A DNA stretch of 49,651 nt from Peptococcaceae bacterium. Lineage in GTDB: Bacteria > Bacillota > Desulfitobacteriia > Desulfitobacteriales > Syntrophobotulaceae. The notes under the pieces are model-generated. The model had not been told where the DNA came from. It made no database searches and was given only the letters and a program-made list of their open reading frames with translations. Below, in pieces: positions 6,499-33,626 of this stretch (its first letter is position 1; each line of letters begins with the position of its first letter). The DNA lies in assembly GCA_012839895.1 (NCBI GenBank), contig DUML01000080.1, positions 1 through 49,651 of the forward strand, in the 5' to 3' direction. Made by a program: the position numbers and the translations under genes.

Positions 6499-7716
6499 TT
6501 ATTGGCAAATTATATCTACTAATAAGGAATTTAGGACAAAAAAGTAACGCGGATTGACTCTCAGCCTACCTTCATCCTGAATTAAAACCCCCTTATCTAT
6601 ATATTTTATCAGTTTTAAGCCATAAATATCCTGAATAGATTCTTTAAATTTTTGCGTAAAAGCATTAAGATCAACCCCTTTGGCAGTCCTTAAGGCCAGC
6701 ATTAGATATTCTGAAATCTTCTGTTCTCTGGTTAAGACCTCGGTTTCCAGGGGATCAAAAGCCTCCCTCCCGGCAAAGAGCAGTTTTCCGTATAATTCTA
6801 AATTCTCGGTATTTTTGGTCCTGACGCCGCCTAAGCAGGAAACTGCGCCCGGGCCTAACCCCAAATATTCTTCGCTTTGCCAATAGGTCAAATTATGCCG
6901 GCATTCAAACCCGGCTCGGGCAAAGTTGGATATTTCGTAGTGCCGGTAACCTTGTTGCTGGAGAAAACCTGCCGCCCACTCGTACATATCGGCTTGGATG
7001 TCGTCATCGGGCAAGACAGGATCTCCCTCCTCCACCACATTTAGAGGATTGCTACTGAACTTTCGGGCTAAAGGAGTACCCTCTTCAAGCATAAGGGCAT
7101 AAAGAGATAAATGCTCCGGTTCCAATTCCACTGCCCGGCGCAAAGTATCTTGCCAGTCAGTCAATGTTTGACCAGGCAAGCCAAAGATAAGATCCAGGTT
7201 TAAATTATGTATTCCCCCTTGGCGGATAAGCCAAACACTTCGCCTAATATCCTCTTTATTATGGATTCTGCCGATTTGGACAAGCATCCGGTCATTAAAA
7301 CTTTGGGCACCCAGCGATATTCTGTTAATCCCGTAGCTGACAAGGACATTAAGCTTCTCTTTAGTAAGAGTGCCGGGGTTGGCCTCTACAGTTTTTTCAA
7401 TCTCTTTCTGTTGAGCCTTAGACCCTTCTGGCGGCGAAGCTGTATTTTGAGGGCTTCCGAAGGAGAAATTTTTGTGAATGGCGCTTAATAAACTATCCAG
7501 CTCCAGCGGCTCCAAAATCGTAGGCGTGCCTCCGCCCAAAAAAAGAGAAGAAACCCCCCCTTGGGCTTCTTTTGACCGCAGTTTTGCTTCTTCGGCGACG
7601 GCTTGCAAGTAAATCCCTTTCCAATCCTCTCGGCAGCCAGCCAGGGGAATGGAGTAAAAAGCACAGTAAGCGCATTTTTTGAGGCAAAAAGGCACATGGA
7701 CATAGAGTGAAGGCAT
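6499..7716 (-). CDS. hemW: HemW-family radical SAM protein (heme chaperone, formerly HemN-like)
   Basis: HemW-type proteins bind a 4Fe-4S cluster and heme and are thought to deliver heme to target proteins; they are not oxygen-independent coproporphyrinogen oxidases despite the old name. The cluster motif CxxxCxxC is present as CLKKCAYC near residue 11, followed by GGGTPT, EANPGT, RISLGAQSF, DLIFGLPGQT and HYEISNFAR. A Ser/Pro/Gln-rich insert near residue 90 looks lineage-specific. I chose the ATG at 7716 (405 residues), 7 nt after AGGTGG; an in-frame GTG at 7728 overlaps that site. It lies between a VTT protein gene and hrcA. The lepA-hemW-hrcA order is common in Bacillota. Confidence 0.93.
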   Translation of the reverse strand: MPSLYVHVPFCLKKCAYCAFYSIPLAGCREDWKGIYLQAVAEEAKLRSKEAQGGVSSLFLGGGTPTILEPLELDSLLSAIHKNFSFGSPQNTASPPEGSKAQQKEIEKTVEANPGTLTKEKLNVLVSYGINRISLGAQSFNDRMLVQIGRIHNKEDIRRSVWLIRQGGIHNLNLDLIFGLPGQTLTDWQDTLRRAVELEPEHLSLYALMLEEGTPLARKFSSNPLNVVEEGDPVLPDDDIQADMYEWAAGFLQQQGYRHYEISNFARAGFECRHNLTYWQSEEYLGLGPGAVSCLGGVRTKNTENLELYGKLLFAGREAFDPLETEVLTREQKISEYLMLALRTAKGVDLNAFTQKFKESIQDIYGLKLIKYIDKGVLIQDEGRLRVNPRYFFVLNSLLVDIICQ

Positions 7717-14258: not shown

Positions 14259-15275
14259 TCACTTTTCCAGATAAGCCTTCAATACTTTAGCCAAAGGTCC
14301 AACCGCCCCTTTAGCTTCCTCCAGGGTATTTAATTGGCTGCCAATTTCCAGGAGCAGGGCACCATTGGTCAAATGTTGATTATAACGGGCTTCCGAGGCA
14401 TATCTTATCTTGGTGGAAAACAACCCCGGGTACTTCTCTTCAGCCAGTTTTATTAAATCCTGAGCAATTTGATTATTCTTTTCCCAATGAGGATTTTTCT
14501 GGCCTATGACAATCATTATTTTGGCAACCTCTTTATTATCGATGATAACCGTGGATTTTCCCACTTGCGTTGGGATTCCATCCCTATGAATATCCAATAG
14601 TAAGCGGATAGTGGGATTTTCCTCCAGCATTTGAACTGCGGTCTGATAAGAATTATCATAGGATTTATCATAGATTTCGTCATGGATCGTAGGAGAATGG
14701 ACGGCATTAATACCTTCTTGCTTTAAAGCTTCAACCAATAATTCTCCTACCTCCATTACCTCCCCCTTTTGCCCGCCTTTGACCCGGTCTACTCCTCCGT
14801 CCCCGGCATATGACTCGGCATTATGGGTATGATAGACTCCCAGCAAAATATCTTCTTCACTGGTAGCCGGTGCCGGTTCATTATAGAAAGGATCTGTGAG
14901 CGGTTCCAGGATTGGACCTTCCATTTCTGGATCATTGGGATGATAAGCCCAGCCCAGCCAGGGAATGCCCCCTGCCGGCGGAGCATAAAAGCTTAAGAAA
15001 TAAGTCCGGGCATCGGAAATATTGACACCTGTCATTAAATAAAGCCCTAAACCGGCCACATTTTTGCGGATTGTGGTCATGTATTCCCGCTCAGGTTGGG
15101 ACAGTCCCGGAGCGCCCTCCAGCAGCACCATCTCAAAAGGGAAGCTTTTCTCGCTTAGAAGGTTAACCAAATGCTGGGAACCGTCATTGGTAACGCTGGA
15201 AAATAAAAGGACTATAAAAAGAGCCAACAAGACAATAACAGAGGCAGTTCGCAGCCAAGAATGCATATAGAACAA
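14259..15275 (-). CDS. spoIIP: stage II sporulation protein P (peptidoglycan amidase/endopeptidase)
   Basis: SpoIIP degrades septal peptidoglycan with SpoIID and SpoIIM during engulfment. One N-terminal membrane helix (about 9-26) anchors a secreted catalytic domain. The SpoIIP motifs are present: YHTHNAESY (148-156, zinc ligands) and LLLDIHRDG (225-233). The TTG at 15275 is chosen because a G-rich ribosome-binding site (GGAAGGGGGG) ends about 7 nt before it; an ATG three codons later is 17 nt away. The ribosome-binding site lies inside a long hairpin. The protease gene gpr, which often precedes spoIIP, is not here. A TTGACA lies on minus at 15348-15353, with a weak -10 only. Confidence 0.93.
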   Translation of the reverse strand: MFYMHSWLRTASVIVLLALFIVLLFSSVTNDGSQHLVNLLSEKSFPFEMVLLEGAPGLSQPEREYMTTIRKNVAGLGLYLMTGVNISDARTYFLSFYAPPAGGIPWLGWAYHPNDPEMEGPILEPLTDPFYNEPAPATSEEDILLGVYHTHNAESYAGDGGVDRVKGGQKGEVMEVGELLVEALKQEGINAVHSPTIHDEIYDKSYDNSYQTAVQMLEENPTIRLLLDIHRDGIPTQVGKSTVIIDNKEVAKIMIVIGQKNPHWEKNNQIAQDLIKLAEEKYPGLFSTKIRYASEARYNQHLTNGALLLEIGSQLNTLEEAKGAVGPLAKVLKAYLEK

Positions 15276-15325
15276 AGGTTGTCCCCCCTTCCATATTTTA
15301 GTAATATGAGGGGCAACCTTTTTTT
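15274..15325. terminator. long hairpin over the spoIIP ribosome-binding site; also terminator-like on plus
   Basis: The outer arms AAAGGTTG (15274-15281) and CAACCTTT (15314-15321) pair. Inside, a C-run pairs with a G-run and CATATT pairs with AATATG, giving a long nearly continuous stem. On the plus strand it ends in seven T (15319-15325), the form of an intrinsic terminator. On the minus strand the G-run inside the stem is the spoIIP ribosome-binding site and the TTG start is at the very end of the stem. It may therefore both block plus-strand read-through toward rpsT and limit spoIIP translation. Confidence 0.7.
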
Positions 15326-15371
15326 AGAACACAGTACGATTCCCGCTTGTCAAGATGCAGGTAAAAATAAG

Positions 15372-15401
15372 TTGCATTAACTTCAAAGAATGTGATAAAA
15401 T
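15372..15401 (+). promoter_or_regulatory. promoter of rpsT
   Basis: TTGCAT (15372-15377) and TAAAAT (15396-15401) are 18 nt apart, and TG-A precedes the -10 (an extended -10). It is about 50 nt before the rpsT ATG. Confidence 0.6.
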
Positions 15402-15453
15402 ATCATTTGCGTGAAAAAACGTGCGGTAGTTCGTTTTGAAGGGGGTGACTAAC

Positions 15454-33508: not shown

Positions 33509-33626
33509 TGTTATCCACCTCCTGTACCCAGACTCGCCTTTAAAGGTCGGCTTGCTAAAGTTTTCAAAGCAAACCAGTTTTTAACCCGGTAAGTGCGGTT
33601 GTGGCAAGAAGTTACCACGTTTAAAT

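Follow-up and report, generated by a model that had tools for sequence, protein, structure and literature searches.

A predicted sigma-E-type promoter nested in a hairpin that would hide the spoIIP ribosome-binding site in spore-forming Clostridia

Described systems and the spoIIP leader

In IS10/Tn10 and IS50, which are mobile elements and not developmental genes, incoming RNA hides the start of the transposase gene and RNA from the internal promoter does not. In phage T4, long early transcripts hide the ribosome-binding site of gene e in a hairpin and yield 100-fold less lysozyme, whereas late promoters in the 5' strand of that hairpin give a well-translated mRNA, the product being, like SpoIIP, a cell-wall hydrolase (PMC3014915, in the sections available). 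In Bacillus subtilis, a hairpin of 20 or more pairs has been proposed to block translation of read-through RNA of the spoIIG operon at sigG, a sporulation gene too, and RNA started at sigG's own promoter is unable to form it (PMC5942855, in the sections available). As far as these excerpts go, gene e is a phage case with a late promoter that has been experimentally tested, and sigG is one gene with a forespore sigma-F/sigma-G promoter, whereas here the promoters are predicted, bacterial, of the mother-cell sigma-E type and found at several sporulation genes. The ribosome-binding site and start codon that are paired in the long transcripts of gene e and sigG are paired here as well, by the predicted fold and by two-sided changes among relatives. 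Elements of this kind have been described before; what looks new, at the level of titles and abstracts, is that one recurs at sigma-E-type promoters with covarying arms and with the -10 enclosed in the hairpin, and among these titles and abstracts we found no such element reported at spoIIP, spoIID or spmA.

We analysed a window of 49,651 nucleotides from a Peptococcaceae bacterium (contig DUML01000080.1), in which spoIIP has the divergent rpsT upstream and murJ downstream (Table 1). The piece from 15265 to 15328, read on the minus strand, is predicted to fold into a hairpin of 19 pairs with -21.8 kcal/mol, against a mean of -11.69 for shuffled sequences (z -3.89), of which 0/200 were as stable; longer pieces around it gave z-scores of -3.29 and -2.05. 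The preliminary description had placed the ribosome-binding site in a stem of about 20 pairs with the TTG start at its 3' end, and the fold bears out both points. In its own genome the hairpin has one full copy, beyond which only two 14-base chance matches were found, and a repeat element was rejected. At the hairpin, no match attains the gathering score of an Rfam family, which leaves it without a counterpart among known leaders or riboswitches. The window's only Rfam match is the L21 ribosomal protein leader at 33520-33610 on the minus strand (RF00559, 39.2 bits, gathering score 36).

Table 1. Features of the spoIIP leader, in positions of the window
Feature	Position	Strand	Basis
-35 of proposed sigma-E-type promoter, GTTCTA	15325..15330	minus	fixed 16-nt distance to CATA in relatives
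Promoter spacer, 16 nt, AAAAAAGGTTGCCCCT	15309..15324	minus	fold
-10, CATATTAC, within inner stem and loop	15301..15308	minus	sequence, fold
Predicted transcription start, inside hairpin	15294, +/-2 nt	minus	inferred from promoter register
Hairpin 5' arm	15321-15303	minus	fold
Hairpin loop	15302-15298	minus	fold
Hairpin 3' arm	15274..15297; paired 15297-15292, 15287-15283, 15281-15274	minus	fold
Ribosome-binding site, SD-like AAGGGGGG, within 3' arm	15283..15290	minus	sequence
TTG start of spoIIP, overlapping stem end	15275-15273	minus	sequence
spoIIP coding sequence, TTG start	14259..15275	minus	Pfam PF07454 8.6e-63; NCBIfam TIGR02867 8.5e-58
U-rich stretch TTTGTTC after stem, overlapping TTG start	15270..15276	minus	sequence
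Seven T after stem, terminator-like	15319..15325	plus	sequence

Across this hairpin lies the motif GTTCTA-N16-CATA (15330-15305, minus strand), and the outer part of the 5' arm, 15321-15309, makes up most of the promoter spacer; shuffling the spacer alone at this locus gave a z-score of -4.6. When the C of CATA is taken as -14, the register that we assume for sigma-E, transcription would start near 15294, and the mRNA of spoIIP itself is predicted to leave out the 5' arm. With a start inside the stem, the hairpin would have its effect on RNA started further upstream. The preliminary description had suggested that the stem tunes normal spoIIP translation through ribosome activity or a factor, and had named a transcription start inside the stem as what would speak against this; such a start is what the promoter register predicts, and the suggestion probably fails. 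If the hairpin belonged to the normal mRNA and controlled translation in response to ribosome activity, temperature, a factor or a small RNA, a ribosome-binding site inside a strong stem would be accounted for, but the promoter motif crosses that stem at a conserved spacing, which places the predicted start within it, and Rfam gave no match at threshold; we regard this explanation as quite improbable.

We consider it likely instead that a sigma-E-type promoter lies within a hairpin which conceals the spoIIP ribosome-binding site, so that translation of read-through RNA would be blocked and the gene's own transcript would escape. In the course of events that we infer, polymerase arriving from upstream would transcribe both arms, whereupon the hairpin would form and cover the SD sequence and the start codon; in some lineages the hairpin and its U-rich tail may also terminate the read-through transcription, and no SpoIIP would be made from stray transcripts. 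Sigma-E polymerase would start inside the hairpin and yield an mRNA with the 3' arm only, which would be freely translated. A hairpin that the gene's own RNA would be unable to form makes sense on this reading because read-through RNA can form it. Hiding of the ribosome-binding site, as first proposed for this locus, is supported by compensatory and sense-oriented pairing, but its target would be read-through RNA rather than the normal spoIIP mRNA. The reading builds on what was shown by computation, namely the hairpin, the motif at fixed spacing, the compensatory changes, the wobble pairs of the sense strand, the recurrence at genes of the sigma-E type and the absence at spoIIIAA.

Conservation of the promoter and of the pairing among relatives

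Among the relatives surveyed, spoIIP is present in 55 of 61 genomes (own genome counted), and the upstream DNA of all 55 was read. We found TTCTA or GGTCTA exactly 16 nt before CATA in 48 of the 55 spoIIP loci of the order, of which 16 belong to family f1 and 32 to family f2, and likewise in 5/5 further f2 loci. Of the seven loci outside the 48, L009, L169 and the three f3 loci (L173, L174, L176) lack the motif, and L170 and L171 have TTCTA-N16-CATA followed by a different layout. At 8/8 f4 loci the spoIIP promoter has the form ATA-N16-CATA, which agrees with the layout expected before known sigma-E genes, an ATA-type -35 and then, about 16 nt on, a CATA-type -10. The -35 of C. difficile sigma-E promoters is described as an ATA motif (PMC3789822, in the part available), and spoIIP, spoIID and spmAB are listed as sigma-E genes of B. 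subtilis, as is spoIIIAA as a sigma-E operon, in the accessible part of PMC517825. Both spoIIP and spoIIIAA of our genome carry CTA-N16-CATA, a form that departs from known sigma-E promoters by a C in place of the first A of the -35 (CTA for ATA).

Over the whole of our genome, TTCTA-N16-CATA shows no enrichment (24 matches vs 21 for the backward control), and GTTCTA-N16-CATA was rejected as a genome-wide signature, with 3 matches vs 3. Six of the 24 matches directly precede an SD sequence and an ORF of at least 60 aa, namely those at spoIIP, spoIIIAA, an SpmA-like gene, a GerM-domain gene, a Phd-like gene and one site inside a longer ORF; the backward control has three such cases, which are unannotated. 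Outside the class, 4 of 19 more distant clostridial spoIIP loci have ATA-N16-CATA with a start behind it, and only one of the 19 has a significant nested hairpin (L056, z -4.0).

The pairing was examined in 27 distinct f2 sequences, L178 with its broken hairpin having been excluded before the count. Of the cells in the structure, 92.2% are paired, 12 cells carry two-sided changes and the covariation score is 0.211, each value reached by 0/500 shuffles; two further shuffle measures were unexceptional (two-sided pairs 56/500, pair types 65/500). Sliding the partner columns by 1-3 positions lowers pairing to 44.9-60.5%, and RNAalifold recovers the same stem from f2 unaided. On the spoIIP-sense strand, the non-Watson-Crick cells of f2 comprise 49 G-T vs 5 A-C, an excess that would be expected of RNA read in the spoIIP sense but not of plus-strand RNA or of a symmetric DNA site, a caveat being that G in the 3' arm is already fixed by the ribosome-binding site itself.

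We further shuffled only the promoter spacer, a sequence passing when its fold was weakened at p 0.05 or less. Among distinct spoIIP sequences, 32/33 pass in f2, 8/8 in f4 and 10/15 in f1. In f4, where the hairpin recurs with arm sequences that differ from those of the other families, a run without L335 had placed 5/7 rows below the 5th percentile, and the final test covers all 8. RNAalifold gave only 9 pairs for f1, and since the f1 3' arm aligned poorly under a single structure, spacer swaps and shuffles were used there instead. When spacers were swapped, the native pair was the more stable in 547/794 combinations for f2, 131/192 for f1 and 278/378 for spmA. On these comparisons of sequences, the spoIIP pairing is under selection that acts in the sense RNA, and it is weak or lost in about a third of f1 (the 5/15 sequences that fail the spacer test). 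The conservation of the stem that the preliminary description proposed to check among relatives was thus observed, pairing being kept by compensatory changes and in the sense orientation.

The opposite strand offers a different explanation, in which the hairpin is mainly a terminator for antisense RNA on the plus strand and shields rpsT. The stem followed by seven T with no plus gene before it is present as first described, the sole plus ORF of at least 60 aa just before the stem being a 68-aa frame antisense to spoIIP, which is unlikely to be a gene. Conservation argues against the terminator role, however: an A run of at least six after TTCTA, the T run of the plus strand, occurs in 1/48 spoIIP loci, that of our own genome, and the wobble counts imply that, in relatives, RNA of the plus strand would carry mispairs at positions where sense RNA pairs. 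A plus-strand intrinsic terminator, conserved and behind a plus gene, was therefore not found, and the protection of rpsT proposed earlier is unsupported by conservation, so that we rate this explanation as very improbable; in this one genome the hairpin could still stop antisense RNA. In the rpsT leader itself (15364-15453, plus strand), the f1 loci listed share a promoter-like TGATAAAAT or a close form of it upstream, followed by TTGCGT or TTGCAT and CGGTAG before AAGGGGGTGAC, and f2 shares the first part without CGGTAG; these elements are possibly an S20 leader.

The same nesting at other sporulation genes

A gene with a Pfam Gate domain, which we take to be SpmA-like, has the promoter in 21/30 loci. 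In 20 distinct spmA sequences, 79.2% of the cells are paired and 9 of 14 pairs show a two-sided change, on a structure that was named by the analyst from single folds; the observed values were reached in 0/500 shuffles for paired cells, 1/500 for two-sided pairs and 0/500 for the score. RNAalifold alone gave only 5 pairs, shifted by one column and with no two-sided change. The wobble cells number 37 G-T vs 6 A-C, and 17/20 sequences pass the spacer test. For spoIID, [ACT]TA-N16-CATA with a start behind it was found in 24/30 loci, of which 17/24 pass the spacer test; in our genome (L098, z -2.8), CCAGCTTCCC pairs with GGGAGGCTGG, the SD arm. The M23 peptidase gene of one relative (L261) has a nested hairpin of -19.6 kcal/mol, a single case without a control.

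As a negative control we used spoIIIAA, which has TTCTA-N16-CATA in 17/37 loci, N15 in one and no other spacing from 8 to 24. For the spacer test, 36 spoIIIAA loci were taken, of which 3 lack the motif and the remaining 33 collapse to 30 distinct sequences; only 3/30 pass. A small hairpin behind the spoIIIAA -10 is not claimed, since spoIIIAA fails this test. The result bears on the explanation that no function was selected and that pyrimidine-rich spacers pair with purine-rich ribosome-binding sites by chance and ancestry. The five f1 sequences of 15 without excess pairing agree with it, but spoIIIAA, with the same promoter type and purine-rich ribosome-binding sites in the same genomes, has no excess, and the pairing of spoIIP f2 and that of spmA were each attained by 0/500 column shuffles; we find this explanation very improbable.

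The arms could alternatively be a DNA operator, in which inverted SpoIIID-like (or GerR-like) sites flank the -10 for late shut-off and the RNA hairpin is a by-product. RRACARNY, which we take to be the SpoIIID consensus, occurs in both arms at 24/48 spoIIP loci, mostly as GGACAAGT in f2, and f1 loci often retain the 5' arm motif GGTTGTCC despite a changed 3' arm; the SpoIIID gene, like spoIID and spoIIIAA, is present in our genome. However, RRACARNY in both arms was found in 0/21 spmA and 0/24 spoIID loci, though nesting occurs at both, and by reading no match lies in the 5' arm of our own window, which leaves it without the pair of sites that an operator calls for. The wobble asymmetry would also be unexpected for a DNA dyad. 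At spoIID, GCTTGTAC (reverse complement GTACAAGC), presumably SpoIIID-like, stands in the leader and outside the arms in 17 of the 24 promoter-bearing loci (L092-L121). The repressor of spoIIP in B. subtilis is GerR and not SpoIIID, according to the part of PMC517825 that was available. Taken together, these observations make the operator unlikely.

For the nested promoter, the recurrence suggests a wider reading, to which we give about even chances: a sigma-E promoter nested in a hairpin that hides the ribosome-binding site and is partly terminator-like may be a regulon-level design in a group of spore-forming Clostridia, by which spoIIP, spoIID, the SpmA-like gene and, in one relative, an M23 peptidase gene would be translatable from no RNA other than that of their own developmental promoters. 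SpoIID and SpoIIP cut peptidoglycan, and their production in a growing cell could be harmful. If the reading is true, the fusion of promoter, hairpin and ribosome-binding site silences developmental genes despite read-through and with no extra DNA, and the nested element is a signature by which mother-cell promoters can be found. Whether bacteria often shield developmental genes in this way, by rendering foreign transcripts untranslatable, would also become testable.

Behind dut, a small conserved gene (L266, L300 own genome; L262, L301-L329) with no Pfam match has a CATA -10 followed directly by a short hairpin that pairs with the ribosome-binding site; f1 loci often lack the -35 motif, and the case, which has no control, is not claimed.

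Upstream genes and separate terminators

In all four f2 loci checked for their surroundings (L021-L024), the -35 lies 6 to 52 nt behind the end of a co-directional ORF. The corresponding distance is 2 to 27 nt in seven f4 loci, and in the eighth, L340, the ORF and the -35 overlap by 10 nt. In our window, 639 nt separate the -35 from the end of holA, the closest gene in the same direction, and rpsT lies between them in the opposite orientation. Three f1 loci have a co-directional gene end within 100 nt, with small antisense ORFs over rpsT in L008 and L012 discounted by eye, and their hairpins have -32.3 (L013), -26.0 (L007) and -20.8 kcal/mol (L017), the last being the same value as in its relative L018, which has no such gene; the other 13 f1 loci range from -11.5 to -21.8 kcal/mol. 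Behind the stem, the T content over 8 nt is 63% in 30 f2 loci, and TTTTTATTTTG follows the stem in three f4 loci. In our genome, the TTTGTTC stretch is a possible terminator tail for read-through RNA, though a weak one.

A separate upstream terminator was found at a loose setting in 30/33 spoIIIAA loci, 1/16 spoIIP f1, 12/32 spoIIP f2 (several of these being weak and, by reading, inside the upstream ORF), 5/21 spmA and 5/24 spoIID loci, and at a strict setting in 17/33 spoIIIAA loci. Across all of these genes, whose loci are non-independent, 10 loci have both a nested hairpin and a strict terminator, 71 the nested hairpin only, 19 the terminator only and 26 neither (p 0.0003). Without spoIIIAA the exclusion disappears (p 0.38), and the avoidance of terminators is therefore seen between genes only.

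By eye, in f2 spmA loci L220, L221, L223-L225 and L228-L230, a hairpin that ends in CTCGTTCTTTTTT directly before the promoter region replaces the nested one. In our own genome, a terminator-like GACATCC-TTTT-GAGGATGTC followed by seven T was seen just before the spoIIID promoter region (L124, about 6585-6620), where, as judged by eye, a separate barrier appears to stand in for the nested hairpin.
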